From Polytrichum commune (Eukaryota > Streptophyta > Polytrichopsida > Polytrichales > Polytrichaceae): 64,000 nucleotides of DNA. Numbering within the stretch: the first letter of the stretch is position 1; each line of letters begins with the position of its first letter. Where the stretch lies: NCBI GenBank assembly GCA_950295325.1, contig OX485803.1:74043554-74107553 (forward strand). The letters are read 5' to 3'. Of the stretch, positions 15,082 through 43,468 are shown one piece after another. The notes under the pieces were generated by a model. That model searched no databases. It was given only the letters and a program-made list of their open reading frames with translations, and was not told where the DNA came from. The position numbers were made by a program, and so were the translations under genes.

Positions 15082-15089
15082 ACTCTTAG

Positions 15090-15714
15090 CTCAGGGAAGT
15101 CACTAGTGAAAATCGTAGAAACAATGTGCGATAAAAAATAAGGTCTAATATATTCATTGTAGATCAATTTTGCAAAAAATGTACATATAATATAGGGGGT
15201 TTTAAAATAATGAAACATGTCTACATGTAAAATACCATCACATATTATGGCCTCTTTTATTTAGACAGTTTATGTAAAATAGCGTGGAAACAATTACTAA
15301 GGGTAGCGGGTCTAGGGTAGGGTTTGTGCTAGTGGATGAAAAGATGTAATTTCTTGTCGAAAAAGCTTGGATGGATGACTTTGCAGGTTGGTTGGCTTGA
15401 ATGTTACTGAACCAACGCATCCAATGTGGAGTTAATGTTCTCTACGTACGTGTTGGGAGGGAAATTTCAACGTGTTGTTTGAATTGCAATCTTCTTTCCA
15501 ATTTTCTTTCATAGTATAAGTAAAATAAGGTATATTTAAATGATTCCCCCAAAAAATTATAATTATTGATAAGGTGTATCAAAATACAAGCATTTACCTT
15601 TATTTTGAAAAATACCATACCTTATAATATTTTATGCAAGGTAAATAGGCTCCTAATAAATAAGTCTTGAGCGCACGTGTATGCATTAATATAAGAGGGA
15701 GTGACCTCCCCGAG
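15090..15714. mobile_element. hAT-like non-autonomous element, copy 2
   Basis: This 625-bp copy is closely similar to 4744-5372 in the same orientation. The left end is CTCAGGGAAGTCACT and the right end AGTGACCTCCCCGAG. It is flanked by an 8-bp duplication matching at 7 of 8 positions (ACTCTTAG at 15082-15089, GCTCTTAG at 15715-15722). The insertion site differs from copy 1, which shows independent transposition and not segmental duplication. No coding capacity. Confidence 0.82.
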
Positions 15715-22097: not shown

Positions 22098-22540
22098 CAC
22101 TAGAAGAATTCTAGCTATCAACGACTATGCTTATGACTCTAATACCAATCGTAAAGGACCACAATGACTATATATGTTTTAGTTATTATGGACGAGTTGT
22201 AACGGATACATAGTTGTTCCGGACATGACGTGGATGCCACGTCAACTTCATCCAAATCTGACCATCGTGAGGTGTCATTGCCATGTGGCTCCGACATGGC
22301 TGACATCGTTGACTAGGCAGCCATGTCACTACGCTATGTGGCAAGGGATACAATGATATGGCGTCCACATCATGAAGTAATATAATCTTACGTGGACAAT
22401 ATACTAGTGCCAGGTCACCAATAGAATTACTCATTTCCTATTTTAAAGCGCATTTTTGCAACAACTGTCATTAACTCATTTGTACACGTGGTGGTGCCCA
22501 TCCATTTAAATAATGCCACGTGTGAGACTTTTTAGTTGTT
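22098..22540 (+). repeat. Type-1 terminal region of element A
   Basis: The first ~340 bp align with the reverse complement of 43130-43468. Landmarks are CACTAGAAGAAT, TCGTAAAGGAC (22150), TTAGTTATTATGGAC, AGTTGTAACGGA and CTTCATCCAAAT. The region carries many short motifs, including several CCACGTGTCG-like blocks (ACACGTG, GCCACGT). In CACTA elements such subterminal motifs bind TnpA (family knowledge); binding here is inferred. Confidence 0.85.
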
Positions 22541-23260
22541 CTATAGTCGAGGGTGGACACTTGTTGGCCACGTACAAAACATGTGGCATTCATGTTGTGT
22601 ACTCCGATGCCAATTCATTTTGCATAAGAGTCCACGTGTCTATTGCTTGGTCTGACACGTGTATTGAGGGTGTACCATACCGTGCCATGTTGGCATCATT
22701 TGAGTCATATGTTGCTCATTGATTATATTGGCTACATATGACATGTCGGCACATTATTCGACAACTAGAGTTCAGAGTCGACACGCTCACTAGTCGAGTA
22801 GGGTTTGGTGTAGTTGACACATGTACACGAGGTGTGTTGATGTGACAAATCGACGACTCGAAATATATTTAATTATGACTACGAGTATTTTCATGGAAAG
22901 CATATATTTGTTATAATCTGGTTGGCAGGTAGTCCTTACTACATCATTCAACAATTTATGTATCAACTTAACGGGTGATACACATATGTTTGCCCTAATT
23001 CGAAATGACACAACTCATTCAAACACCCACATTACTGCAATCCTTGGAGGGTACATGCACTGTGTGAGGAAAGTGTGTTCAATACATACAATCAACGCCA
23101 CATGACTCATTCAAAATGCCTTGGAAATGTGCACTTCTACATTCGAATAATCCTTTAAGTTGAATCTGCCAATCCCTACCTCGTCCAATGGTATGTTCAT
23201 GTAGCTTTACCCTACACCCCACTCATGTATATAAAACCTGTAAACTATGCCTATCTACCC

Positions 23261-24376
23261 CTAAGCTTTCATATGCTTTTGGCTCCATAACACACTACCA
23301 CCTATCACATCTTTTACCAAAAATCGATCCCCTCCTGCATGTGGATGCATGAGAGGTGCATCATCTATTTGAGCATGTGTAACATCAACCTTGTAGAAAA
23401 ATTGGGGAATTGGTTTAAAATGAAATTTATCAACCCCCCAAACACCACTTATCTTGCCTGATGCTACTATCTGCCGCGGATTCTTAAAATCCATCAACTG
23501 CACAACATGTTCAAAGTAAAACTGCCCCAACCCAAAATCCACAACATACACTTCAACATATATTCTTCACATACAACAAACACATGGCACCACCACCCAA
23601 TGCTTAACATGTCTACCAACATAGACATCATGCACCTAAACAAATTACAAACTTCAAATGCTAAGGAGTCAATTTGGAGTCAAGGATTTACCCTTTGCAC
23701 ATTGGGCCCTTCAATGATTGTGTTGTCCACTGCTTTCACTGTCCTCGTTCGTAGTTCGATCCCTTGACTTATATGCACACAAACCCATATACACCAATAA
23801 GTCAACTTCAATCTAACATATGTGAGGGGACATTCCACAATGTGAAGTAGTAGCTCACAAGTCCCCTCACTTGACAACTTAGGATGTCCTGACATGTTTG
23901 AGTTTGAAAGTTTGATCTTTGAGCTTTGGATCGTCCTTCCAGCCGCATCTACATTTGGAACATCTTCAACTCCATGTTTCGTATCCAGTAACACCCTACG
24001 AAAATGTTGAACATCAGGACTACCAACTAGGCTCTCTAGAAGAGGCCACAAATGTTCAAGCCAATGTTTGCAGATGAAATACAACCACTAAACTGCACCA
24101 TTGGCACCAAGGGAATGAACCAGAAATTAATTAGTTGAAGTGTAAAATAGGTACACACACTGTACAAGTGGACTTCAATCCCAATATAACAACCATGTAT
24201 CATCAGCCCACAAATAAGATATCTTCTTCCATATCACCCCCACGGCATCATCATATTTCATATATGACTCAATATTCAAGTAAGAACAATTCAAACTTAC
24301 AATTTTTTCTGGTGTCTTCAATATCTGCCTTGCTCGATTTCTTTTTGTAGCAATGTATCCAAGGTCCTCAACGCTA
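23261..24376 (-). pseudogene. Truncated tnpA-FCP1 gene of element A
   Basis: Three homologous pieces of the element B gene remain on the minus strand. 24301-24376 matches the basic exon (ATKRNRARQILKTPEK, ending at a GTAAGT donor). 23680-24084 matches the end of the FCP1-like domain and its tail (LWPLLESLVGSPDVQHF, then SSKIKLSNSNMSGHP). 23261-23551 matches the final module (GLGQFYFEHVVQL, then SGVWGVDKFHFKPIPQFFY). The DNA-binding exons and the first two thirds of the FCP1-like domain are deleted. The tail frames are open where B has two TAG stops. A start and a coherent spliced frame are lacking, so I call it a pseudogene. Confidence 0.75.
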
Positions 24377-24699
24377 TCTACAATAGGAAACCATTAAGCA
24401 ACAATAAGCTAGACCAGGAGTACCAGAAGGGTGAAACACATCACTGACTTAGGTTGAGAAATGATTATGCACACTACATCCACAAAAAAGGAGCAGATTC
24501 ACTTGAATCACATACACACCAACGCATTATAATTTGATCTAAACCCTAAACCAACACCCTAAACATCCCTACCACAAGGCGGCCCCTAAATTTGATGATG
24601 TTTAAGTAAATTTGATGCGAAGGGATGCATATTACGTCTTTTTTAGTCAATTTCTGTACAACACATTTTGAAACATAGAAAAACAGTCATTTAGGAAGA

Positions 24700-25090
24700 T
24701 GCCCTCAAACCGATTAAAGTGAAATCTGCTCCTTTTTTGTGAAATTTGAAATTTGAAATAACCGATTCAAGTGAATCTGCTCCTTTGGTTCAATGTGAAT
24801 CAGATGCCCTCAAACCAATTCTGAAATTTGAATCAGATTCACATTGATTCTGAATCTGAAATCTGTGAATCTGAAACTTGAAATCTGAATCTGTGAATCT
24901 GAAATTTGTGATTCACAGATTCACAGATTCACAGAATCTAAAACTTGAAATCAGATTCACAGATTCACAGAATCTAAAACTTGAAATCGGATTCACAGAT
25001 TCAAACATTGAAATTTGAATCAGATTCACATTGAATAACCGATTCAAGTGAATCTGAAATTTGTGAAATCTGAAATTTGAAATAACAATC
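24700..25090. repeat. Cluster of short GAATCTGAAATTTG-type repeats in element A
   Basis: AATCTGAAATTTG, AACCGATTCAAGTGAATC and CAGATTCACAGATTCAC recur many times in direct and inverted orientation. The segment can fold on itself. It has no counterpart that I can see in element B, so it probably arose after the two copies separated. Confidence 0.75.
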
Positions 25091-25384
25091 TACAGAATTC
25101 ACAATTGCAAACCAGATGGGACAAGTCAAGGTGATTCCCCATCCAGTCGATTGTGGAGTTGGAAGTGCCCAAAGAACTCACCAGACATAATCCTTGTTGT
25201 ACACTAATTTCATACAAGCACCTAACTCGCTCTATAATCTGTAACCATTCTTTGAGTATGATAATTTAAGCCTGAAGGAAATGTCACTGTACAACTCTAT
25301 GCATGAGCTCTCAAATTCATACGAGGCCAAACTCACTGGTAGTTTGATGCCAAGATTTTACAAAAGTCTTTTATACCCATGTGC

Positions 25385-26255
25385 AAGGACCAGCAAGTTC
25401 ATAAATGCATACATCCACACAAAAAAAACCCTGACTTAGCCTCAACTCACATTGGACAACCCTATCACACATACTTAAACACCCAAAACCCTACACCACC
25501 TACATCTTACACAAACCCCAACACCCTAAGCATTTCTATCACAAGGTTGCCCCTAAATACAACACACAAAAGCAAGGACCAGCAAGTTCATAAATGCATA
25601 CATCCACACAAAAAAAAACCCTGACTTAGCCTCAACTCACATTGGACAACCCTATCACACATACTTAAACACCCAAAAACCTACATCACCTACATCTTAC
25701 ACAAACCCCAACACCCTAAGCATTTCTATCACAAGGTTGCCCCTAAACACAACACACAAAAGCAAGGACTAGCAAGTTCATAAATGCATACATCCACAAA
25801 CAAAAAAACCTTGACTTAGCCTCAACTCACATTGGACAACCCTATCACTCCAACCTAAACACCCAACACCCAACACCCTACACCACTTACAACTTACACA
25901 AACACCCGAAGCATTTCCATCACAAGGCTGCCCCTAAACACAACACACACAAAAAAAAAGGACCAACAAATGCATACATGCACACATGCACACAAACTAG
26001 ACCCTGATTTGCCTCAACTCACATTGGACAACCCTATCACTCCAACCTAAACACCCAACACCCTACACCACTTACAACTTACACAAACACCAACATCCTA
26101 AGCATTTCCATCGCAAGGTTGCCCTTAAACACAACACACAAAAAAAGGACCAGCAAGTGCATACATGCACACAAATTAAACCCTGACATACCCTCAACTC
26201 ACATTCATAAACCCTATCACAAAAACCTAAACACCCAACCCCCTACAAATGTCAC
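25385..26255 (+). repeat. Tandem repeat, five ~189-bp units, inside element A
   Basis: Units start with AAGGACCAGCAAGTTC-like sequence at 25385, 25574, 25764, about 25958 and about 26145 (spacings 189, 190, about 194 and 187). Each unit runs through CTCAACTCACATTGGACAAC and CACAAGGTTGCCCCTAAA. The first two are nearly identical and the last two are more diverged. A partial unit lies at about 24540-24595. Non-coding on both strands. Confidence 0.9.
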
Positions 26256-27239
26256 GCCTGGCAACCATGCACGGCGTCCTTCAAGGTATGAGATCTGAAC
26301 CCTCTACAAAACTTACCTATCTGAACTCTCACACACAAGGGTCTTCCATTGCCGCACTTGTAGAGACCAGAAAATGATAGGGTTAGAAGGGAAGTGGGTT
26401 TAGGGTGCCCTCAAGGGTGAAGGAGAGAGACGAAATCTCCACCATCCACGTATGATCTCTATGTACGTCACTTGCCAACATGGCAAGCCACGTCATCGTT
26501 CACAAGTATGTTGGTTAGCAACCAGCACACGTGGCCAAAATAAACGACTAAGCTATGTCTTTGTTGCCACGTATCGGTCCACGTGCACAAACAATGACTG
26601 ACTTATAGTCGTATGCAAGTATAGGTTTTTATGACTAAATTGCAACTATGACCTTATCTAAGGTGACGCAAAAAATGAGAAGCTCTCAATAAACGCCAGA
26701 ACAATGTTCGCCCTGAACGCGCGGTTCATTACAAACATACCACTTTGCTTGAGCTTTAGAGAGTTCAACAGAGAAGACTACAGAAGGGTATCAAATGTAG
26801 TTAGAGGAATATGTATAGAATGTAGCTAAACCTTGCGAAGAAAAAATCCTCTAATATCAGTGTTGAACCGGATAGATTCCTCACCCTCGCACTCTGACCA
26901 ACTATGCTAAAAAATGGTAGACATACAGGTTTATGAACATCTTGATTCTTGCACTACATGCCAGTCAACGAAAGCAACAAGAGGGGAGAAGAGTTTAGGG
27001 GAGGACTAACAATGTTTTGGCTCATTCTTGCAGTGGCATAAACACTTCCTGCAGATGATTCGCCCGCCTCACAAGGGAACGAGAAGGTGATTTTCTTATA
27101 ACACATCCGCACGGAAGCTAGTAAGATGCCCAAGAATTTTTGTCTCATTTGGAGATCATCAACATAGTCGCAAGGGCTTGACCACAAAATACAAATATTA
27201 TGCCATAATGTAGCATGACTTGTCATAGTGTTAGAAAAT

Positions 27240-27784
27240 TTTATGCCACGTTAGCAAAGGCAATACTATAATGACTCTAAAATAACTAGCATAAGGTGTA
27301 GGGTAAAGGGGGTATTATGCCACCTAAACCCTAAGCCTCATAGAGTCATTGAGGTTGGAAGACGTAGTCATTCTTTTGGCACGTCAGCATTATCGAGAAT
27401 AATGTTCACTTAATACATACCTATTTTCCACATCATTGGAGGGACGTAAGTGCCACATCGCATATTTGTGTTATTACTGAGTAATAGTATACACGTAGTC
27501 GTTAAATGACAACCACATAATGACTAATAATTAGCCAGGTCATGATATTCTATCCACGTTATACACGAATAGATGTAGTGGATGATACATGGTAGACAGA
27601 AAAATGGTATGTTATACGGCCTTCAATAGAGTTCATCATAAGTCATTTAAATGACTAAATAATGACTCACATGTTGGCCACGTCACACAAGGTGAGCTGA
27701 GTAGGCGTCACATTCGTTTAATGAGTTGTTTAGGACAGTGAGTCATTGATACCATGGTTGGAATGGACAAGGATTCTTCTAGTG
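27240..27784 (-). repeat. Type-2 terminal region of element A
   Basis: The reverse complement of this region aligns with 28360-28920 of element B. The first ~35 bp are nearly identical (CACTAGAAGAATCCTTGTCC) and similarity continues in islands (CGTGTATAACGTGGATA, GATGTGGAAAATAGG). Frequent AGTCATT and ATGACTA motifs mark it as a subterminal region. Confidence 0.85.
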
Positions 27785-28359: not shown

Positions 28360-28920
28360 CACTAGAAGAATCCTTGTCCATTCCGACCATGGTATCAATG
28401 ACTACTTGTCCTAAACCACTTGTTAAACGACTACGGCGCATATCTGGTTCACCTGTGGTGACGTGTCTAGCATGGTTGTCATTTTGAAGTCATTCAACTG
28501 ACTCAACGACGAACTCTGTTGAAGACCTCACAACATAGTCATTTTCTGTCCACCGTATATCATCCACTCCATCCACTCGTGTATGACGTGGATATGGGAT
28601 CATGACCTAGTTATTCATAAGTCATTCTTTTGTAGTCATTCACCGACGAGGATGCACTATAACTTTGTATTAACATTCTTATCTGACGTGGCATTTAGGG
28701 CTATAGAATGATGTGGAAAATAGGGAAATTTCATAGGAGCAACAATGACAGTAATAATGACGTGTCATATTAATGACTACCTTGGTAACGTCAATGACTT
28801 GGGGTGTGCAGTAAGTTGAGGTGGCATACACCCCTGCACTCTATACCCAATACTAGTTGTTTCCGTCTCGTTTTCATGTTATTCTTGTACATGTGGCATG
28901 GAATTTGTGCATACTATGAC
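28360..28920 (+). repeat. Type-2 terminal region of element B
   Basis: The left subterminal region is homologous to the right end of element A. AGTCATT/AATGACTA-type words occur repeatedly (for example 28406, 28491, 28539, 28619 and 28636). They are probable binding sites for the element's TnpA-like protein, by analogy with En/Spm. Confidence 0.8.
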
Positions 28921-29514
28921 AAGTCATTATTAAACATGCTACCAGATTGCAAAATACTTTTATTTTAACTGTGGTTTAATCCCTTCCTTCTATGCCAACG
29001 ACCTCCAAATGGCACGAAACTTTTTGAGAGTGATACTAGTAAAAATATGAATGTGCTATAATTAAATAATATTTAACATGTCTAATTAATTGGGCTAGTC
29101 TTGAAATAGGATTCTAGGTCGTATTAATTAAAGTTTAGGGAGGACTTATGGAGGGTGTGAATATCATTTGTAGCATTTGAGATCCTGTTTGTCATAATCG
29201 TTCATACATACATGACTATTGTGTACCTCATCAATAACCTTGCCACGTCAACAATGAGCGTAAACATTGCATCTACACAACAATTTGCTATCCCAACCGA
29301 AGTGAAAATTTAGTCATTATTCAGTGCTTGTACATTCTTATATGCCATGTCACGTAATCAAGGTTAGCATTAGCAATAGTGTTGTCGGAATGACGTCATA
29401 GTTTGGACATATTGGACTCATAGTGTAGTCATACTTGCCTACTGTAAATTCTAAGTCATTGTTGAGAATTAGAATACAGAAACTATATTTTCTCATACAA
29501 AATATAATGTCAAC

Positions 29515-32500
29515 TTAAAACTTGGCGACTGCCAACAAATTATCTTTGTCTGATAATTCAATGGCCCCTACTAGAGAGACAATTCTTGGAGGTGGGGGGA
29601 CATGCTCTAGAGCACTCATGCCTTGATATTCTAAGCTAGTTGTTATGAAAACATCCGATGTGTCTTGTTCTTCCCTCCTTGACCGTGCTTCCTTTCGCAA
29701 TACTACCTTCCACCCGGGTTTTCTGAAATCATTGGAGAAAAATACTTGTGTAGCTTGACTTGGGAAAATGAACGGGTCCAACATCTTGGGTACTTTGTGC
29801 CGAGAATTCACCACCATAAACCCGGCATCGTCCCGTACATAAGTTGGATTCCCACGATTATCTTCTCTTTTCAACCACTCGCACCGAAAAAGAATTACCG
29901 GAGTTCGCAATGGACCATAATCCAACTTCAATATATCTTGGAGCACTCCCACATAGTTTAGGGATACTTCAGATTGAGAATCAACAGTGGGTACTTCAAA
30001 TATAGAAGCAATTCCACTGTCGTATGTTTGCAACAATGCTGATTGTGAATCTTCCACTCGAAAGTGGTTCCCAAATGCACGCATCCTCGTGTACCGTGTT
30101 GCTTTTTGGGATGGCCTGCTACACAACAAAATCCTGTCCATGTCGTCCCCGTTGTTGGGATCGTGTGGATGGATGTGCACTGCTTTTTTAACCCAAACAT
30201 CAAATGGTTCGATGTTGCCATTTGCATCATGTGCATCCCTCCATTGCCTGAACACAGCATGGATACATTAGTATGTGACTCACAGGTGTCATATACTTGT
30301 CATATTACAGTCATTGAACCTCCAATAATGAATGAGGATGATGATGAAGTCCTGCTACAGTCATGATTCACTGAAAAATAACTACACAGCGACTATTGAA
30401 CAGTCTGCTCACCGATGCCAGGGTTCCAAGAGTGATATGTTTGTTAAAACATATTGATGAGCAAGTTCTCTCAATGGAGGAGTCATGACATAACTTGAGC
30501 CTGACCCCTCCAGAACCTCCTCTGCATCTCCGTATTCTTCATCTGCGTCCCACACTCGTCGGTCGACAACCTCAAACCTCTGCAGGTATTTGGTGATGAA
30601 CCCAAGGCATTCATCCTTCACATATCCCTCTGCCATGGAGGCCTCTGGTCTTGCCATGTTCCGCACATAGTGTTTCAATGTTTTCATGTACCTCTCAACA
30701 GGGTACATCCATCTTGTAGAAACAGGTCCACACAAATCCAGTTCCTCCACAAGGTGATACACCAAGTGAGTCATAATATCAAAAAACGACGGAGGGAAAT
30801 GCATATCTAAGAGTGCCATGCTCCGAGCAACGTCAAGTCGAAGCCCCTGAAACTCAATGGGATTCCACACTTTGCTACAAATTCTCCGAAATACCTTCGA
30901 CATCCTCATCACTGCCATTCTTGGTCCTGGTGACAACAAACCCCTTAAGCCTAACGGTAAGATTTGATGCATGAGTACATGGTAATCATGCGACTTCAGT
31001 CCCCCAAAGTTCTTCTTCCGTATGTATTGAGCCATGTTGGATATGTGGCCTGAAGGTGCTTTCAGAGACTCAATAGTGTTGGCAAATATGTCAAACTCCT
31101 CGCTAGTCAGTACATAAGGGGCTGCAGGTTTTAACATTTTTCCAGTTTTTTTTGGGTTGTTGGTTAGCCAAAGGTGTTTCCTGATTCCCCTACGTTGCAG
31201 ATCGCGTCTAACTTTCACAGTGTCCTTATGCCTGGTAACAGTCTTCAGTATGTTCTTCGACAGATTTTGTTCGCAATGCATAACATCTAGTGTGTATCGA
31301 ATAAGGAGGTCCTGGTTCAGATAAACACCACAAACATTTAAGTTTAAGAGATTGAAATTGCAGTCAAAACATACACTCCTCAGTTGTAGTTGAAGTTTTG
31401 TCATTCTGTTGACAACGTGCACAAAAAGGTAGTCGTTTCTTAGTCGTTTAAGGGTCCAGCTGGACATAAATACAGTCACTCCATAGTCATTTTCAAGATC
31501 CTAACATTACATCATTGCAGAGTACAGCGTAAACATCAATGGATGTAGGTGGACTCTGAACCGGGAACATTCTGCGACAATATGGATTCAAGTGCGTCTC
31601 TGGGCTTGCATTGCAATACTTGCTGGTTTAGGGTGCTGATAATTAAAAAAAAAATGCGTCAGGCAATACCTTCCAGTATGGCAAATCGTTCAGAATGCTT
31701 CTCCTCTTCACTCCATGTATTTTTGATGGATCTCCGTCACTGCCTTCTCTGTTCGCCTTTCTGAGCCAATCCTGGTATTGCAAACCCCTTAGTTCTTGCT
31801 CTTCTGCTGTGACGACTCTAGGAGGTCCTCGTTCTTCCGCGCGACCGTTAAAGTGATCCTTCATTCTACTAGATCTCCATGGGTCATCAGGTGGAAGCCA
31901 TCTTCTTGTGTCCGTGTAAGTTTGTTTCCCAAGCTCAATGGAATGTTCCCCCCTAAAATCTGGCCCACAAACTGGGCATGCAACATAGCCTTGGTGTGCA
32001 ACGCCTGCTACTGTTCCATACCCTGGAAAATCATGGATTGTCCACAAAAGTATTGCCCTCAAATTGAAAGTCCGAAACCCAACCTCTTTCGAGATGTCAT
32101 AAGCTAACACCCCTCTCCATAACTGTTGCAATTCTTCAACTAGAGGGGCCAAATACACGTCAAAAAATTGGCCAGTAACAGATTGTTTTCCAGGAATAAG
32201 CAAGGCTAGCATGATAAAAAATTTCTTGGTTGTCAGCCACGGTGGAATGTTATAGTTAAGCAACATCACTGGCCATGTTGACCAAGTGGAGCGTTGAAGC
32301 TTGAAAGGATTAACACCATCAGCTGCAAGTCCCATGTGTACATTTCGGGAGTCCTGTCCAAATGTGGCATCCACATTGTCATGCACATGGTTCCATGCCT
32401 TGGAATCACATGGATGTCTAACCATCCCATCCGAGCTCCTGTTTTTTGAATGCCATGTCATGAGTTCCGATATGACTGGTGTTCGAAACATGCGTTTTAG

Positions 32501-33442
32501 TCTAGGAATCAAGGGGAAATGTCTAAGGACTTTCCAAGGTCTTTTATGTTGGCCCTCATCTTTATACCGTGGAGCATTGCACTTAGGACAACGGACAACA
32601 TTTTCAAGAGGTCCTCTATACAACACACAACCGCCCACACATGCGTGAATAGTCTTGTAATTTAGCCCCAACCGTCGAATCAATGATTTTGCCGCATGGT
32701 AATTCTTGGGTAGTCTGTTCTCCCCAGGAAGAAGGTGTAGGCGGAAAAGAGCGAATACTTGATCGGCGAATTTGTTGCTGACTCCATGGATTGTGCACAA
32801 TGTCATGATCAAAATCGTGGCAGCTAAAACTGAGGACTTAGCTCCATCGTATAGTTCCTGGATTGCCTCCTCCAAATCATGTGGTGCATCCTCTTTGTCA
32901 TCCTCATTGCCTAGGTCTCCCATGGGTTCCTCATCGTCTGAATCACCCGAGTCACATGCACCCTCTTGTAGGCCATCAACCACAGTAAATGCGTCCATTA
33001 CGATGTCCTCCATTGTTTCTTCCAGAGGACGTTGTGGCTGGTCATTTTCCTGGAATACATCCTCCACCATTGAACGCACTTCGATGCCAGCGTCCATTCT
33101 CCCATCTTCATGTGTCATGCGCGGTGTCTTCAGCTCTTCCTCCCATTCCTCATCAGACGAATCCCTGTCACCTGGGCCTCTCCATAGTCTAAAAGTGGGT
33201 TCTCTGCCATATTGGATGAGGTGCTCCTTCACCTTTTCCAGTGAGCACTGCACACGGCCCTTGCACTTGGAGCATGGACAACGTATGCGTTTCAGGTTGT
33301 AGAATATTGCCCTCTGCTGCTCCCTCTTCCATAGCCTATCGTCTCGCAATTGTTGCCTCCTCTTGTCGCTAACAGGTAGTCTCCTTTGCTCCATTCTAAG
33401 TTCCGGAGCACATACATAATTTCCATTGCCAGCCATCAACAC
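29515..33442 (-). CDS. tnpD: CACTA transposase, TnpD/Transposase_21 type
   Basis: Three exons: 33442-31670, 31311-30413 and 30247-29515. The introns (31312-31669, 358 bp; 30248-30412, 165 bp) have GT-AG ends and agreeing phases. The joined frame is 1134 codons with no stop, a usual length for this family. The N-terminus has a Transpos_assoc-like CPCSKC (55-60) and VKEHLIQYGR. A zinc-ribbon-like CVGGC...RCPKC is at 268-288. The Transposase_21 core runs from about 340 to 500 (LAADGVNPF, LLNYNIPP, CPVCGPDF). Exon 2 supplies LDVMHCEQNLSKNIL and the LVYHLVEELDLCGPV/MYPVERYMK region (DUF4218-like). Exon 3 carries the YGPLRTPVILFRCEWL region (DUF4216-like). It should cut and join element ends in the nucleus. 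The start could also be the ATG at 33436. Open over 3.4 kb, it looks recently functional. Confidence 0.93.
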
Positions 33443-33889
33443 TGAGTGTTAGGCATGTGTACGTGATTGAAAATTGACCAAATGCATGATAGTCCAAATT
33501 CATACCTACCTAAGTGCACTGAAGGTTTCACTTATTACACATGTAGGAGGATTCCGCATGTGTTTACAGTGCTATGTGTGTGGAGTGTTTACAGTGACCC
33601 GTATGTGTTCTCACATCCTAAATAAGGGCCACAGAAATAATGTAGTTGCAATATACTCCTTCCTCTCTTGACATATAGTTGTTGTTTACTCTTTTTGTGT
33701 CCCACGTGGACAACCATAAAGTAATTCCTAAGTCATTTTAGGATTTATGCGTGAACAAAATATAGTCATTCACTGAATTTAAAAATCATTCACTGTTTGT
33801 TTGAAGCATCACTATGAAGTTAACCTTACACACTACCCCCAACAAATACAATAAAGAAATGTGGTCTTTTCATAAAGGAGCTTGAAGAG

Positions 33890-34520
33890 GTGCTAATGGG
33901 TTACTAAGTTGCCTTGAACCCAAGGGCCACTTAGTGGTCTCATGGGACAATAGGAGTTAGATTGTTTGAATGTCTAGCTCCAAACCTATTTCAGACATGC
34001 ATGTTACCATTAGTGAGCAACTAGGACGGTTGTTCCCTTCCCTTACGCACTTTTAAGGGAACAGGTTGAAGACAAGATAAGGGCCGCGACCAACCAATGA
34101 ATCTGGAGAATTGGATGCTAGTTTCAATTACAACCGGTTCAGTTTGAGAAATAACCATTTGAAGTTCAAGACTTCAAGAAAACTACTGAGGACTTTTAGA
34201 GGAATCTATAGAAGACACCTCGAATTAGTAAAGAAAGCCCGAAAGATGTGAAAAGATATTCAATTGGACTTAGAAATGCCCATGTTGAATACAATATTAA
34301 ATGTTTCCCTTGTTTGTAAGGAAGAGCCCACTGAAGCCTTAAAAGGCATAGGGTCTCAATATACAGCCATATACACGATATACACATGTCTACGCAAGTT
34401 CAAATTTCAGAATTTATTTATATTGTGCAAGAAAATATTCAACAACACTAGGATGTTCTGGGGGGGCCGCCGAACCAAAACTCAAGATTCAGGAACTCAT
34501 ACCTGGGATGCTAATACTTT
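33890..34520. mobile_element. Diverged Mutator-like fragment inside element B
   Basis: The segment 34130-34270 (AACCGGTTCAGTTTGAGAAA, then TGAAGTTCAAGACTTCAAG) is related to the arm of the 17797-20013 element (AACCGGTTGAATTTGAGAAA, then TGAAGTTCAAGACTGCAAG). A possible imperfect duplication (GTGCTAATG near 33891, ATGCTAATA near 34507) brackets about 610 bp. Termini are weak, so limits are approximate. It is nested in element B and therefore younger than B's arrival, or was carried with it. Confidence 0.5.
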
Positions 34521-35224
34521 GTGAACTTCAACATGAAGTTCAATAAATGAACAATCAACCCAACATGTTGTATAACTCGCATTATCTAATTTGGTCTTCA
34601 CCAACCATTTTGGTCCTTTTATTTTTATATACTTTGATATGATTCTCACAAAAGTTGTCCTTTAAGTCAAATTTAACAAGATGTGCACTGCATATAATAT
34701 GGAAATTTCATACTTGTGGCTACTCTCTTTCTAAAAATAAGAGGCTAAAGAGTGTTTACAGTGCTCTATATGTGTTCTCACATCCTAATTAAGTTTCAGA
34801 GTAATAATGTAGTTGCAATATACTCCTTCCTCTCTTCACATATAGTTGTTGTTTACTCTTTTTGTGTCCCACGTGTACAACCATAAAGTAATCCCTAAGT
34901 CATTTTAGGGTTTAGGGTGCCCAAAATATAGTCATTCCACAGTCAATTTTTGGAACACGTGGACATGAATATAGTAATTCCTAAGTCTTTTTCGTATATG
35001 CTAGGCTTTTTGGTGCCGTTGAAATCTACCCTAATCCCTAATGCTACAACATCGTTTAGGTATGCCTCAGATTGAAACGGGATAAACTACGACTCTGAAC
35101 CCCTGACCACTCGGCGATCAAATAAGCAAGTATTGTGTATGTAGGAGGTTTAGGAAAGTGGGGTCTTAGGCACAGAAGCGTGAGATGGTAGTGGAGAGGA
35201 GAGTGGGGAGGTAAAAAACGGGAG

Positions 35225-35400
35225 AAATCCGAGGTGAAAATCTTGCTAGTACCGAGGTGAAAATCAAGTGAGTGCCGAGGTGATCACTCGTGTGAGTGCC
35301 GTGGGTAAAACTTGTGTGAGTGCAGAGGGTAAAACTTGTGTGGTAGATTGAGGTGAAAATTGTGTGAGTGCCGAGGGTAAAATCGTGTGAGTGCTGCGGT
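35225..35400 (+). repeat. Short tandem repeats upstream of the tnpA-FCP1 gene
   Basis: About five units of ~30 bp built on GTGTGAGTGCCGAGGGTAAAA lie within 250 bp upstream of the proposed start codon at 35471. Position and regularity suggest promoter or protein-binding repeats; this is inference. Confidence 0.6.
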
Positions 35401-35470
35401 AAAAAGGTTGCGAGGGCCCAGGTTTAGGATTGAGGGTAGTGAAAGGTGGGGTTTGCATTCACAGATCTCC

Positions 35471-38400
35471 ATGGATGGTAGCACAAATCTTCCTGAGCAC
35501 AGCTTAAATTATGTGCAATCCCCTTTAAAGCCTAAGCACAATGAAGCTGCAAAAAAGGGAGAGTGTAGTCATACCTTTGGCGTAGATGTAGATGAGGCCG
35601 CACTCAAGGGAGAATACGAGCTTGCCCGCGACAAGCGTGTAGCCGCACTACAGCAGTTCTTGAAGCCTGTGCAGACTGCAGCCACAGCACTGTAAGTCCT
35701 GTAGCAGTTTTTTTGTATTTCTTGACGTATGCAGGTTGAGCAAGTTTACTATTGCGACAGAGCGGGATTAGTAGCACTAGGGCGAGGTTACTTTTTGGGC
35801 AGAGTCGGCCATCACTTGTAGTATAATCACTTCACACATACAGTAAATACTTGCTCACATCTTCATACATCAGCTGCTATCTGCCAACACCCTCTGAGCT
35901 TAGGGTTTAGGTTTATTCATTTGACTAATACTCACTAATGTGGCATTGTGAAGGCATCCTGCATAACCAGGCTCACTGATGGTAAAATCTTCTATCTCCC
36001 TCTGAGGTTTGCCATTGCCGCTATACACTGAGTATTCCTTCCTCTTGCATCCGTAACCCCTGTTCTCTTGGACGCTTGCAGTAACTAGGTTAGGTATTCA
36101 AATTTCCGCCATCAGTTTCGTGGAGTACATAGAAGCACTGTGGTCATGCCAGCACTACCTTCCAGCTGACATTGTAGGAGTAATTTTTAAGTGATTTTTT
36201 GAGTTTAGATGATGTTGAGTAATTTGGTTGAGCCACGTATGATGGGCTCCATGGTCTCACACGTGGACGGTGGGGATTGCGCGCCATGTAGACCAGCATC
36301 CTCGAGGGCCGCGAACCCACGTCACTCTCTAACCCTACCACCTCTCTCCGTGCACTTGCTCGCTGTGACTCTGTCAACTCTGAAGTGCCATGTGTAGATC
36401 CGTGTAGATGCTTTGGATGTGTGTGTACTCAGGAGATTTTGTTGGGGTGGCAGGCGTGACATGGTGAATTCAGAGAACCCAAGAGTACGCCGCGAACCCG
36501 CACCAAACCCCTTCAAGCCCCCGCGCAGGAGCAACAGGGAGTGTGTTCTGAAGAACTCGCAGGTGGGAGCCCACAACGACATGGTAATCATAGCCGAGGA
36601 TTCGGACGAGACACTGCCCGAGGACGAGTGGGAACCAGGTAAGTCTCTCACTCGCAGATTGATTGCTTGCGGATTTCAGAACCCTAGGGAATCTTTCAAC
36701 CTACTTGCTTCATTGCTTGTGTCTTGGTTGCATGCAGGTGGGTTGCTTGGTGTTTAGAATTGGCTTTCGAGGTTGTATGTACTCTGATCCAGAAGGCAAT
36801 GTGATGTGTGGGTTTTTTAGATCTGGGGTTTTAGTGGAATTTGGACTACTCACTTGAAATAATGCAACTCTGTATGTACTCTGGTCCATAAAGCAATGGG
36901 GTTTTAGATTTGGGCCTTGAAGAATTTGGATTGCTCACTTGAAACTGGTTTAGGGTACATTGAGATGGTGGGTTGGTGTTTAGAATTGACTTTTCAGCAA
37001 TGTATGTACTCTGGTCCATAAGGCATAGTGATGTGTGGGTTTTTAGATATGGGGTTTTAGTGGAATTTGGATTACTCACTTGAAACTGGTTTAGGGTACA
37101 TTGAGATTGTGGGATGGTGTTTTCCACAGTCATTTCGAGGTTGTATGTACTCTGGTCCATAAAGCAATGGGGTTTTAGATCTGGGCCTTGAAGAATTTGG
37201 ATTGCTCACTTGAAACTTGTTTAGGGTACATTGAGATTGTGGGTTGGTGTTTGCCAGAATCTTTCGAGGTTGTATGTACTCTGGTCCATAAAACAATGTG
37301 ATGTGTGGGGATTTTAGATATGGGCTTTGGCAATTTGGATTACTCACTTGAAGCTGGTTTAGGGTACATTGAGAAAAATCATTTTTCAGAAAGAAAAGAA
37401 AGAAGTCATTTTCCAGTAGCCACAAGTATGACTAAGCACATCTACCTGTCTCTTATTCTCAAGAGTGTTAGGAGTGATCAAAACATGAAACCCCACTTTC
37501 TAAAAATCTGGATGAATCTTTGGAGCTAGATGGAGGCTAGTTGGAGTGCAAGAACTAATGCTTCAGCAGTCCAGGCCATGATAGAATTAGTTCCCCTTAT
37601 TACTTTTGTCCCATGCTGGAGCTACTAGGACCTTTGGCTCAAGAAAGGGTTACCTTCAGAAATACCTAGGTGAGTCTTCTCGCAAATACTGGTCTATTGC
37701 TTTACATGTATCCCTTTCCCCAATGCCTTGAAAAAAAGATTGAGAAACATCTCTGCCTGCAAATAGATTTCCAAGTCCGAGAGATTTTTATGTATATTTT
37801 TCGAACTTATACCTGTAGATCTTTAAATGATACAACCACTGGGCTTCCATTTCCATCTCCTTTCCTGCTTCCGTTGCCTCTTCCTCTTCTTCATCAGCAA
37901 CTGCCTTACTCCCTCCTAATAACTCCCTCAACAGTCATAGGTTGGGGCAATTCCTCGTCTTCCTCTTCAGCAAATTCAATCGTCTCAACTACAACAAAAT
38001 CATGCCAATCAATCAATGTCTTTTGCTGACTAGTTGACTTTTCTTTTTCTGATGTAACAGGCGTTGAATTACTTGATACAAGATGAGGGCAAGCCTCCTC
38101 AGATTAGTTCACATGTTGCTTCCGTGTTTGCTTAAGTGCTTAATTGCTTGCTTACTTGTTAAGTCAACTCCTTCGTGGGCGTAGTGGTCTAGGGTTTTAT
38201 GGTTTTTAAGATACGCCTTGAGACTGAAATATATTAAACTTGCCCCCAACCTTTTTATCCATGCTGCAGACTGCTCTACAGACTCGGAGTCGCTACATGA
38301 AGGCACTCATGTTGTGGCTGGCTCCAGTGCTACAAAGAGAAAACGAGCTAGAAATTTTTTGAAGACTCCAGAGAAAAAGGTACGTGTTAAGGCTCTCCTC

Positions 38401-41400
38401 CCATCTGCAGTAATTTTCCAATCCATTTGGAGTAAGCTTGCAGTAAGTTTGAAGTAAGCTTACAGTAAGTTCACAGTAAGCTTTTAGTATTGGATTACTA
38501 TTGTGTTCTGCCACAGTATTTTTTCACTACTTCTACAGTACTTACGCAGTATTGTGTGTCAAGAGCTACCTGCCTAACCATACATGCTTCTTTCAACCAG
38601 TATACACGTCATTGTATACCCTAAACTGTCTATATGTTGTGGTGAGGGTTAGGTTGCAGCAAACCAAGGGGACAACTCCACACCTGGATTACCTCAGAGC
38701 CAATGGCCTTGGATGCAACCACCGTGGATGCAACAGCCATCTGGGGCCATGGGGCAATCCATGCAACCAGGACCTGGAATGATGCCGCAACAAGCCCCGT
38801 GGATGATGGGACAAGGAATGCCATGGATGATGGGCCATCCATACACTAACCAATGGATTCCTCCGCCAGCACCTGCCACACAACATGTTCAAGACCAATT
38901 TAAGGTAAAGGCGGATAGTGAAGCAAGAGCGACACGGAGAGCCACTAGGAAGGAGGCAGAAACAAATGTGGAATTGCGGCGCTCTGGAGGCCAGAAACCT
39001 CATACACTGAGAGTGAAAGCGGGCGGTGGCATAGATGGCAGATGTGAAGGCAAGAATGCCTTTGATGAGGCGCTCCGCAGCCTGGTTCCTCGCATTTTGG
39101 ATGTAAGCGTGCTAAAGTGGAAGTTCCAGCCTCCAGGCTCTGTGGAGAAGCTGAGGTCTGCCATAGACAATGAATTTGAGTACTTGGGACATAGTCTTTC
39201 AGACCTTGGCTTCAAAACTGCAGTCAAGCGTCAAATGAAAACAGAGAGGGCCAAAATGAAAGGTTGGTTTATGTCTGGCAAAAAACAATGCCCTGTTTTC
39301 ATTGAACCTGATCAATGGGCACGATTATGTGAATATTGGTCGGCGCCCGAGACAGAACAAAAGGCGCAGTTGATGGCGAAAGCAAGGCAGCAAGTGAAGA
39401 ACATGTCGAATGTTGGGAGGGGAGGAAAGGCTGGAAAAGAGGCTCAATTGGTAAGTAGCCCTAAAACTTGATAGTTTGTAAGTCACTTCACATGTTTATT
39501 ATATCAAATTTGATCTAATGAGGCTAAAGTGCATTTGTATGACAGCGGAAAAAGAGGCAGAGGAGCCCAGGGATTACTGAGATTGTGGAAGAGTTCCAAG
39601 AGTCTGAGCAGACTGGAGCTTGTACATCTGTAAGTATGGAGGCTCTATTCAACTAATCTTATTGTCTTGGGTTTATGTAGCTCAGTTGCAAAGGTAATAT
39701 AGTAACTTCAGAGTACTGTGAACTGCCGCAATGAAGTTGGGTGTAGGCTGGGCTTAGTCCTGGGTATATGCTGTAATTTTGCATTCAGTCTGATTAAAGT
39801 AGTTGTTGGGTCCTTATTGAGTCATAGTTCTGTCATTATGTAGTGAGTTCACAGTTATATTGCTGGGTTTTTGTAGTAATTCCTAAGTCATAGTTCCAGA
39901 AGTTCAAGTAATTCTTCTGAAAGTTTTTACAAGCAGGTTCCAATTGGTTAGTGTCAAGCTCCGCTGCAATTGACTTAATTCCACTTGAGCTGCTCTTATA
40001 CTAGATCACATGATAGGTTTATGTCCTAACAGATTGCCAACTCCTTGCAATCAATGGCTGTCATCATGGTGTTTCAATGTAGCCCTAGCAATCCATGGAT
40101 GTGTTCACAATGGATTATGTAGCAATCGCAATTGCATATTGTGTGTATGCTGGAACCATGAGGTCATAATGTGGTCATCTTCTACATCCAGTCTGTTGTG
40201 GCTAAACCATAATAATTTTGTACCTCGTTTGTGCACAGCAAGGAGTTTCTGGGAGGATGGCATCACGGATGACAACAGTTGAGAGCCAGCAAAATGAGCT
40301 CAAGCAGCAGTTATCCGAAGTTTTGCAGAGTTCACAACAAAACACCCTGGTTCTAAATAACCTTTCGTCCATGTTCTCCATCATGATGGAGAAATGGGGT
40401 AACCCAGTGACTGTATGCGAGCCCAAGTCGACTACACCCCAAAACACTAACTCCCATATGCCTAGTTCAGATCCCATGTTCAATTCATGCGATGGTGGTG
40501 CAGGTGACACCGCCCTTAAACCAGTTTCCAAGGTGTTGGAATTTGGAGCTCCCAACAATGTGGCTAAGGTGAATGGGGAGGGTGTGATGGGGGGTGGTAA
40601 GAGTCCAGAGGGTGCTAGCGAGGTAGGCGCTAGCAAGGTAGGTGGAACAGAGGCACTTCACACACTTGCAGGTGGACTTTTGGAAGCTGAAGCAGCCGCG
40701 GTTGGGGAGCACACTCCTCGCGAAGGTGGGAATGGGAAGGATGGGCTCGATTTGTGTGCAAAGGGTGCAAGAAGTGGGACCTTGAGAGAGGGAAGTGGTG
40801 ACGGTGGGACTGTGGTTGCTTTGGCCGTGGAGGGTGGGATTGCAGGGTCTGGCAATGGAGAAGGTAGGTCCCATCGAAGTGGGAATGGGGACGTGGCTCC
40901 GCCATCGTCACCAGGGAAGAAAGTACCTCCCACTAAACCAAGGAGGAAAAATAAGCACCATTCCCCTAACAGAGTAGGTGGTAGTGGCAGTCAAGAGGCT
41001 CATCCAAATGACCAGGTGAGCAGCGACATCGAGAGAATTGGTGCCCTAAACCCAGTTAAATTATTGATTTTTGATGTCCATGGCACGCTTTTAGATTGCA
41101 GTCTATTGTCGGAGCCAAATCCTAACACCTCTATCCGTGTGACTACGCGGTCTTCGACACGACGGATAGTGTTTAGGCCATGGCTTAGTGAATTCATAGA
41201 CAAGTGCTTTAGAAATTTCAGAGTTGCATTTTGGGGTATCAAGAGCACATCAAACATGGAAGATGTTTTGGCATCGATGATGCGGAGGTTTAATGGATTG
41301 GGTAGCCACAAACCTGTGTTCATATGGTCAACCAAGGAATGTGAGGAGTATAGTGAGAACATTGGGGTGTCAAAGTGGAAAAAACCATTGGCCAAAGTGT

Positions 41401-41750
41401 GGGCGACGTGGCCAGAATGGAATGAGGGGAATACAATCATCATTGACCACCACCGAGCTATGGTGGACTGCAACCCAGCTGCGAACATCATTATCCCGCC
41501 CGCATTCTATGTGGAGGACATCACCAAGCTTGCAAATGATAACAATTACCTGAGATTTGGTTTGTGGCCTATTCTCAAAGGCCTACTTGGTAGTGTTGAT
41601 GTTCACCAACATGGTAGTGTGTTGCCTAACACCAAGCAGGCAATTGGGGATACTTCGCGAAATGTACAGGTTGGTGGGAGGACAACGAGGAGCTCGAAGA
41701 TGAAACTTCCAGACACATCCTTGTCGGGACATCCTCCGTTGTCAGGTTAG
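35471..41750 (+). CDS. TnpA-like protein fused to a plant FCP1-type HAD phosphatase-like domain
   Basis: Six exons with matching phases: 35471-35691, 36454-36638, 38270-38379, 38653-39450, 39546-39629 and 40239-41750 (969 codons). All introns are GT-AG, mostly with GTAAGT-type donors. Residues ~137-172 hold a basic patch (TKRKRARNF). ~189-250 is M/Q/P-rich (repeated PWMQ and PWMMG). ~300-430 resembles the Transposase_24/PttA family (GWFMSGKKQCPVFI, QWARLCEYWSAPETEQKAQ). After a coiled-coil-like segment (~478-515) and a Gly-rich linker comes an FCP1/NIF-like HAD domain (~740-920): LLIFDVHGTLLD (742-753), RPWLSEFIDKC, KPLAKVW and NTIIIDHHRAMVDCNP (864-879). The HAD DxD is DVH and the usual DD pair is DH, so catalysis is doubtful. 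It likely binds element ends in the nucleus. An extra 5' exon cannot be excluded. Confidence 0.8.
36770..37380 (+). repeat. Tandem repeat in intron 2 of the tnpA-FCP1 gene
   Basis: Five diverged units, about 97-141 bp apart, each begin near TGTATGTACTCTGGTCC (36774, 36871, 37001, 37142 and 37270). They run through TTTGGATTGCTCACTTGAAA and TTTAGGGTACATTGAGA. They lie wholly inside the 1.6-kb intron. Apparent proteins read from them on the minus strand are repetitive by-products. Confidence 0.85.
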
Positions 41751-42282
41751 GGGAGCTGTGAACTACTGGTTCACACTTTGCAATGTCCCCTTGCCTATGT
41801 TACATTGAACTCACTAATGGGCTTCATATGTTGGATTTGTGCGCAGGCAAATCAAGGGAAGGAGCTTCGAAGAAGGACGGTGAAAGCACTTGACAACGCA
41901 TTGAATGAAGGACCCAATGTGCACCGGGTATATAGCTAAGTACAGTAGCATTTGATTTATAGGTTCCGAAGTTTTAATTTGGTGTTGTTGCATAATTTCT
42001 ATGTCCCTTGACATGTTGCGTGTTGCGGATGTTGGGCTGGGGCAGTTTGCTATTGGCCAAGTTGTGCAGTTATTGAATTTCAAGAGTCCGCGGCAGATTG
42101 TGGCATGCGGAACTGTTAGTGGTGTGTGGGGGGTAGATAAATTTCATTTCAAACCAATTCCCCACTCGTTCTACAAGGTTGATGTTACACAAGTACAAGT
42201 GGGTGATGCCCCTCTCATGCATCCACATCCAGAAGGGGATCAATTAGTTGTGGCTGATGTGATAGGAGGCAGTGCGTTATAG
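41751..42282 (+). pseudogene. C-terminal continuation of the tnpA-FCP1 frame, cut off by a TAG
   Basis: The frame of the last exon continues after a single TAG (41748-41750) through 41751-41930, with QGKELRRRTVKALDNALN. A further module follows at about 42010-42282 (GLGQFAIGQVVQLLNF, SGVWGVDKFHFKPIPHSFY). Element A has homologous, uninterrupted sequence at both places. Where B has TAG (41748, 42280), A has a sense codon (GAG, TGG). The final module resembles nothing I can name; its W-G-V-D-K-F-H-F-K core is conserved between copies. Either B has lost its tail by mutation or the tail is spliced differently. Confidence 0.65.
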
Positions 42283-42599
42283 AGCCAGAAGCATTTGAAG
42301 GCTTAGGAAATTTTGAGCATAGCAAACATGTTTAGAAGATTGAAGGGTTAGGACACTGAAGGGGCTAGGACTCCCAGTTGATGCGGAATGGAGCAGTACA
42401 GTGTAAAAATGCACATTCCCAAGGCAATTTTGATAAGTTAGGTGGCACTTGTTGTATGTGTGGAACCACACTTATTTTCAATATGACATCGAAAGCGGAT
42501 TAATGAATGTATGACTCGAATTTGGACTCATAGTGTAGTCACACATGAAATGCTTGAGTTGTTGTTGTTGTAATTGATTAGTTGACATTTCAAATGCAA

Positions 42600-42960
42600 C
42601 CAATAATAGATTATAATGAATGACTACTCTATGACCGCAATCAATGACCACTCTATGACAGTATTGAATGTCCACCCCATGTCTACTCTATGTAGCCACT
42701 CTCTCTACTCTATGACTACTTTATGTCTACTCTATGACTACCATATGACTACTGCATGACTATAATCAATGAGTAACATATGACTACTGCATGACTATAA
42801 TCAATGAGTAACATATGACTATAATGACTATAATCAAACATATGACTATAATGACTATAATCAAACATATGACTACAATGACTATAATCAATGAGTAACA
42901 TATGACTATAATGAATGAGTACTATATGACTATAATGAAGTCCACATGGCACTATCGGCA
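42600..42960 (+). repeat. Subterminal TATGACTA repeat array of element B
   Basis: More than fifteen copies of a TATGACTAY word occur in 360 bp, including near-perfect repeats of TAATCAATGAGTAACATATG. The array lies 500-870 bp inside the right terminus. In CACTA elements clustered short subterminal motifs are TnpA-binding sites required for transposition (established for En/Spm). The same ATGACTA/TAGTCAT word recurs at the left end. Confidence 0.85.
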
Positions 42961-43039
42961 TATACGTGGCAGTTCATCCAAGCGGGACATGGCCATATCA
43001 ACACCGATGATGTGGCAGCTCAAATCACGGCATGATCGC

Positions 43040-43468
43040 CACGCGTATGTTACCTAGCAAACAAACACATACATTCAACTAGAGAATGACTACGCATTTT
43101 AACACGTGGCATTATGCGATTGGAATGGTTTCGCCACATGTAAATATGAAATTATGGCACGTGGCACAAACTCACATTGCAAAAGAGAAATGCTACATCC
43201 TCGAAGACCCTGCCACATAGATGGTGACGAGGATGCCATGATGTATGCCTAGTCAGCAGCTGGCCACCACGTCGGAGCCACGGGGCAAAAGAGACTCACG
43301 TGTGACCTATTTGGATGAAGCTGACATGGAATCCATGTCATGTCCACAATAACTATATGTCCGTTACAACTTGTCCATAATAACTAAAAAAATTATAGTT
43401 ATTCTTGTCCTTTACGACATGTTTTAGAGTTTTAAATACAGTTGTTGATTGATGAAATTCTTCTAGTG
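43040..43468 (-). repeat. Type-1 terminal region of element B
   Basis: This is the reverse complement partner of 22098-22540. The outermost 13 bp repeat the CACTAGAAGAAT terminus, and inner blocks GTCGTAAAGGAC, TTAGTTATTATGGACA and AGTTGTAACGGAC are conserved. ACGTGGC words are frequent. Confidence 0.85.

Follow-up and report, generated by a model that had tools for sequence, protein, structure and literature searches.

A NIF-type domain in the tnpA-like gene of a family of CACTA elements in Polytrichum commune

The stretch of Polytrichum commune DNA considered here (64,000 nucleotides of contig OX485803.1, referred to below as the window) raises the question of whether a CACTA transposon can include, as part of the gene for a TnpA-like protein, a domain of the type found in FCP1 phosphatases and, if so, what such a domain would do there. 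An initial annotation, made from the letters of the window, had joined six plus-strand exons into one reading frame leading from a Transposase_24-like region through a coiled-coil-like segment to an FCP1-type phosphatase domain, and had placed this gene inside a complete CACTA element. We examined the element, the gene and their relatives in the same genome (G000; 407.8 Mb in 64 contigs).

The element and its tnpA-like gene

The ends of the element were fixed from an alignment with a sibling on contig C7 that is 98.7 % identical to it across the same 15.1 kb. Both ends carry the CACTA-type TIR CACTAGAAGAAT, and a 3-bp TSD, AAA for the element in the window and AGA for the sibling, flanks each copy, which bears out the claim that the element is complete. 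The tnp2-type transposase gene and the tnpA-like gene are on opposite strands, minus and plus respectively (Table 1), and subterminal repeats are clear at the right end of the element and weak at the left end. The CACTA (En/Spm) features that were checked are all present, namely CACTA TIRs, a 3-bp TSD, a transposase of the tnp2 type and subterminal repeats. Next to the element, in the opposite orientation and with matching ends, lies an older member of the family that has undergone internal deletion. It retains exon 8 and the final residues of the NIF domain, and self-comparison revealed tandem repeats within it at positions 25383-26247 of the window.

Table 1. Location in the window of the CACTA element, its genes and an adjoining relative
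Feature	Position	Strand	Evidence or remarks
Older internally deleted relative of the CACTA family	22098..27784 (ends approximate)	-	TIR CACTAGAAGAAT, AAA on both sides
Complete CACTA element, 15,109 bp	28360..43468	.	TIR CACTAGAAGAAT, TSD AAA
tnp2 gene continuation, PF13952 DUF4216	29515..30267	-	Pfam E 1.6e-12
tnp2 gene continuation, PF13960 DUF4218	30409..31500	-	Pfam E 1.1e-32
tnp2-type transposase exon	31643..33448	-	PF13963 Transpos_assoc E 4e-8; PF02992 Transposase_21 E 4.7e-64
tnpA-like exon 1	35471..35691	+	44-74% aa identity in divergent copies L071-L073
tnpA-like exon 2	36454..36638	+	47-59% aa identity in L071-L073
tnpA-like exon 3, basic, KRKRAR	38270..38379	+	55-75% aa identity in L071-L073
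Exon 4, TnpA-like region, PF03004-like	38653..39450	+	PF03004 E 0.007, under cut-off
Exon 5	39546..39629	+	75-93% aa identity in 15/16 other sequences searched
Exon 6a, coiled-coil-like segment and linker	40239..41015	+	Ends at phase-0 donor CAG/GTGAGC
Exon 6b, retained extension with NIF domain and short tail	41016..41745	+	NIF at about 41046-41621
Exon 7, 81 nt	41847..41927	+	Frame 0 if NIF skipped; frame 1, stop 41891-41893, if kept
Exon 8, conserved C-terminal segment of NIF-skipping isoform	42046..42282	+	tblastn
Subterminal direct repeats, ATGACTAC-type units, right end	42596..42938	.	Clear here, weak at the left end
In donor sequences a slash marks the exon border.

The six-exon plus-strand model with its product of 969 aa was reproduced exactly, exons 1 to 5 being those listed in Table 1 and the sixth, which is divided there into exons 6a and 6b, running from 40239 to 41750. 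The parts of the gene that were found stand in one and the same order in 17 sequences, made up of the window copy, the sibling and 15 other copies, and the splice sites are largely invariant, with the GT of the exon 4 donor present at 15/15 loci, the AG of the exon 5 acceptor and the GT of the exon 5 donor each at 15/16, and the AG of the exon 6 acceptor at 13/14. Because these sites are kept across copies, the join between exons 5 and 6 is well supported at the level of the DNA sequence. Exon 5 had no match in one of the 16 other sequences searched, L035. An artefact of exon joining was also considered as the source of the fusion and rejected, as the coiled-coil-like segment and the NIF domain form one unbroken open frame in the window, share one frame in its relatives, and have their splice sites conserved.

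The label Transposase_24-like stands as a weak resemblance. The PF03004 match of exon 4 scored 17.0 bits (E 0.007) against a cut-off of 28.7, and another copy, L029, scored 18.3 bits and likewise did not reach the cut-off of 28.7; the Pfam profile search found no PF03004 match in L035. The name TnpA-like used here rests on position and architecture and not on the PF03004 score.

The NIF domain in the element family

The last exon of the six-exon model matches PF03031 (NIF) with an E value of 9.1e-12 and a score of 45.4 bits (cut-off 21.8), a match on which the proposed fusion depended. When the genome was searched, the NIF domain of the window gave 75 matches and the TnpA-like exon 4 gave 144. 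The pairing count drew on 64 NIF rows out of 75 and on 82 exon-4 rows out of 144, after removal of the weak tail and of additional fragments belonging to one copy. At 45 of the 64 NIF places an exon-4 place on the same strand lay no more than 15 kb upstream, and at 19 there was none; in 43 of the 64 the TnpA-like exon was no more than 6 kb upstream, and the other two pairs were 12.7 and 11.2 kb apart. By our own arithmetic, about 0.04 pairs within 6 kb would be expected by chance (82 exon-4 places in 408 Mb). The possibility that the window holds a single odd copy was rejected on the basis of the 43 close pairs. Judged from the genome sequence, the TnpA-like/NIF fusion genuinely exists and recurs, and its presence in a complete CACTA element, as initially proposed, is supported as a conserved trait of many copies. 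The copies fetched for the comparisons that follow were picked for diversity and not at random. No description of a TnpA or CACTA transposase fused to a NIF, FCP1 or HAD phosphatase domain was found in the open-access literature, judged by titles and the opening parts of abstracts, and none of 37 pattern matches in viral contigs was confirmed as a relative.

A second dispersed repeat, of about 2.3 kb (L019, 4318-6612; L020), has an open frame of 257-261 aa that also encodes a NIF domain, here containing DLNGVL and DDSP, and positions 15082-15709 of the window match part of this repeat at the DNA level. A first look at the genome for PF03031 yielded 965 candidates, and most of the matches listed have open frames of 257-283 aa. 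That these frames represent the same element was considered and rejected, as the two examined, L019 and L020, are the different, 2.3-kb repeat. Elsewhere in the genome, at C5:1751760-1846160, a cluster of fourteen equally scoring PF00504 light-harvesting matches spans about 95 kb. When a light-harvesting protein of the genome was compared with the PDB, its best matches, behind one long two-domain chain (9vfj_2), were chains 8htu_U and 7xqp_a, which come from the moss Physcomitrium patens and point to a moss as the probable host.

The enzymes of the FCP1/SCP group are characterized by the motif DXDX(T/V), in which the first Asp is the nucleophile and the second assists (excerpts of PMC7281111; the motif is also defined in excerpts of PMC8346121). 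The motifs were surveyed in 28 NIF copies from the element family, three with internal stops and many closely related to one another, and the counts are not counts of independent events; an alignment (A1) takes in 22 of the 28. The catalytic motif DXDX(T/V) is absent from all 28. Motif I is NxHG in 25 copies, NVYG in one and DVHG in two, i.e. its first position is Asn in 26/28, Asp being confined to the window copy and the sibling, and its third position, that of the second Asp, is His in 27/28 and Tyr in 1/28. Gly replaces the Ser/Thr of motif II in 27/28 copies, motif IV is DH in 27/28 with one gap, and the Lys of motif III is kept in 28/28. With catalytic positions changed in 26 to 27 of 28 copies, the description of the domain as an FCP1-type phosphatase is not supported as regards its activity, and these replacements suggest that the domain is probably not a working phosphatase, i.e. 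it is probably a pseudophosphatase.

Single-sequence AlphaFold2 prediction of the window domain alone had a pLDDT of 34.7 and gave no usable model. A sequence comparison with the PDB, with E values up to 1 allowed, matched UBLCP1 alone (3shq; E 5.2e-8, profile positions 40-158), and this match leaves motif I uncovered; neither FCP1 nor SCP1 was matched. Outside the elements, the nearest relatives found in the genome are a pair of neighbouring NIF genes (C2:43149594 and C2:43151069), which share about 30-33% identity with the element domain, have DVNG or DVDG as motif I and DD as motif IV, and have no exon of the TnpA family of the element within 15 kb upstream. A five-row profile (A2), which is headed by one of these genes and also includes one SCP-like and one repeat-borne NIF sequence, matched the element family with an hhalign probability of 99.1%. 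We take the proteins of these two genes to be of the plant-specific NIF type.

The pattern of substitution differs between parts of the gene. For the NIF domain, Ka/Ks was 0.13-0.44 in 15/16 pairs, the pair of window copy and sibling having a Ks of 0; a set of nine pairs, delimited a little differently, gave 0.25-0.46. Values for the other conserved parts were 0.17-0.34 over eight pairs for the TnpA-like exon 4, 0.12-0.32 for the coil and 0.22-0.57 for exon 8. The linker, at 0.55-0.93 over eight pairs, is fast-evolving. The low values for the NIF domain next to those of the linker indicate that the domain is kept as a protein while the adjoining linker drifts, and the NIF protein appears to be under purifying selection, probably as a binding module. 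Since catalytic residues of its class are lost and purifying selection nonetheless stays, the domain most likely works by binding and not by dephosphorylation.

Two predicted isoforms and the history of the domain

The 3' end originally given to the gene, a stop at 41748-41750, is wrong. This TAG falls inside a conserved donor, CAG/GTKAGGGG, which reads CAG/GTTAGG in the window, and two conserved exons lie beyond it (exons 7 and 8). In the relatives L024-L027 the donor reads GTGAGG, with no stop, and a donor at this place, the 3' end of exon 6b, is present in 9/9 copies examined. A further donor of phase 0, CAG/GTGAG or GAG/GTGAG, is found 30-51 nt upstream of the NIF domain in 14/14 copies examined. 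As a control for conservation of this donor as codons, 28 other invariant and highly degenerate residues were inspected, and 3 were identical in codon across all copies; two of these three are Val GTG, out of 5 invariant Val codons. Among adjacent pairs of invariant residues, the first five bases were kept in 6/20. This control is mixed, and the support it gives the upstream donor is weak.

Two isoforms are predicted from the phase-0 donor upstream of the NIF domain together with the two conserved exons downstream. Isoform A would join 41015 to 41847 and 41927 to 42046, skipping the NIF domain, to give a protein of 830 aa ending in the conserved C-terminal segment. Isoform B would continue to 41745 before joining 41847 and reach the stop at 41891-41893, giving a protein of 983 aa that ends with the NIF domain and a short tail. 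Nine copies that allowed the exon borders to be placed were selected for examination; both frames are open in seven of them, including the window copy, and both break early in L027 and L030. A test of codon positions in exon 7, based on few sites, pointed to frame 1 (isoform B) for the first half of the exon and to frame 0 (isoform A) for the second.

The downstream exons also occur in copies that have no NIF domain. NIF-less L035 includes an exon with the length and phase of exon 7, and its linker, 81-nt exon and C-terminal exon join in phase 0 in an open frame. The C-terminal segment encoded by exon 8 was matched by tblastn in 14/17 sequences, three of them NIF-less. L023, L028 and L032 had no DNA match to positions 41600-43468 of the window when 1.4-1.5 kb past the NIF domain was searched; their 3' exons are either missing or too altered to be recognised, and they are probably cut copies. 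In the window, exon 8 ends 8 codons before that of the sibling. No Pfam match was obtained for the C-terminal exon in five sequences; it may resemble the TNP1/En/Spm family PF03017.

The history of the domain was assessed with a tree of 38 exon-4 rows, for which NIF status was mostly taken from the pairing and in which some of the single NIF-less rows are perhaps truncated. Two NIF-less clades, represented by L033 (5 rows, support 99/98) and L034 (4 rows, 100/100), each include several near-identical copies and are surrounded by NIF-bearing rows in moderately supported groups (90/95 and 91/91). The NIF label needs 8 changes on this tree, 2 of which are forced by well-supported branches. L035, L047 and L048, which are distant and NIF-less, are on long branches and their placement is unsure. 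As the copies examined share both the position of the domain and its donor, we read this distribution as one gain of the NIF domain followed by losses. The near-identical copies in the NIF-less clades indicate that the domain is dispensable for spread.

Possible roles and comparison with known systems

The reading that we consider reasonably probable is that the tnpA-like gene of a CACTA element gained a plant-type NIF domain in an intron, that splicing can skip or keep it, and that the domain, though non-catalytic, is under selection and probably makes a second, regulatory form of TnpA. The domain would have been acquired in the intron between the exon for the coiled coil and linker and the C-terminal exons, where it stays in frame with the upstream exon, and the gene could then yield two proteins. 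We infer that both are made. The form with the NIF domain would add a contact with a host protein to a coiled-coil protein that is presumed to sit on the subterminal repeats, and would be the second, probably regulatory, TnpA of the element. The regulatory role is suggested by two known cases. The TNPA protein of Spm binds the subterminal repeats, is needed for transposition and can act as both a positive and a negative regulator (excerpts of PMC2613891). In the P element, transposition is inhibited in somatic cells, where the third intron is retained (excerpts of PMC4158355).

Other explanations for the arrangement have to be set against this one. It is conceivable, albeit unlikely, that every form of the protein includes the NIF domain, that the upstream GTGAG simply encodes Val-Ser and that the C-terminal exons belong to another transcript. 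The single open reading frame shared by the coil and the NIF domain would fit, as would the codon-position signal for frame 1 early in exon 7 (its first half), in agreement with a NIF-retaining form, and the fixation of GTG at 2/5 other invariant Val codons. Against it stand a donor that is in phase 0 in 14/14 copies and the joining of exons 6a, 7 and 8 in phase 0 in an open frame in 7/9 copies, which is also seen with the linker, 81-nt and C-terminal exons of NIF-less L035. The suggestion of the initial annotation, that the domain is an active FCP1-type phosphatase working on RNA polymerase II or related targets, is very improbable. Though the PF03031 match is clear, the nucleophilic Asp is present in two copies (that of the window and the sibling) and the motif III Lys in 28/28, the second Asp of motif I has become His, the Ser/Thr of motif II has become Gly and motif IV is DH, each in 27/28, and the nucleophile is Asn in 26/28. 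The fusion may act as a decoy, an idea also raised in the initial annotation.

There is equally little likelihood that the NIF piece is a passive fragment of a host gene with no function, as in CACTA elements that capture genes. Mobilisation of gene fragments by a CACTA element has been recorded in soybean (a study cited in PMC4158355), and the NIF-less clades thrive. However, Ka/Ks for the NIF domain (0.13-0.46 over both sets of pairs) is near that for the TnpA-like exon, and copies with as little as about 50% protein identity still have the open frame and the upstream donor, and this explanation is disfavoured.

Returning to an intron-borne domain that can be skipped or kept, a more specific and distinctly tentative version would make it a regulatory switch. 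The NIF domain would have been captured into the intron and disabled, and splicing would pick between a TnpA with the C-terminal segment and a NIF-TnpA that contacts a host factor and restrains or redirects the element; as part of the same tentative proposal, candidates for the host factor are the RNA polymerase II tail, the proteasome or another phosphoprotein. If this is true, a transposon protein has recruited a host signalling fold whose catalytic function is gone but whose sequence is still under selection. As the domain sits where splicing can add or remove it, the tuning by a DNA transposon of its own activity becomes testable, and the elements offer, in one genome, a natural series in which a single domain was gained, decayed and was lost more than once.

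The domain has in common with the NIF/FCP1/SCP phosphatases and UBLCP1 the match to PF03031, but it differs from them in its changed DXDX(T/V) motif and in its location in a transposon protein. A parallel is fungal Tim50, likewise with a NIF-type domain that has neither a perfect DXDX(T/V) motif nor phosphatase activity and acts as a receptor (excerpts of PMC8346121). Tim50 differs in that it serves mitochondrial import and has no link to transposons.

The retained intron of the Drosophila P element is not known to add a folded domain. It can nonetheless be likened to the retention of the NIF domain described here, as an intron retained within a transposon (excerpts of PMC4158355). Among CACTA elements, En/Spm of maize, Tam1 of Antirrhinum and Tgmt of soybean have the same CACTA ends, a 3-bp TSD, a tnp2-type transposase and a second product that is presumed to bind DNA, and alternatively spliced products have been described for them (excerpts of PMC2613891 and PMC4158355). 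The element in P. commune differs from these in that its second gene has a NIF domain at an alternative 3' part, and its two genes are on opposite strands, unlike the single precursor described for En/Spm and Tgmt.
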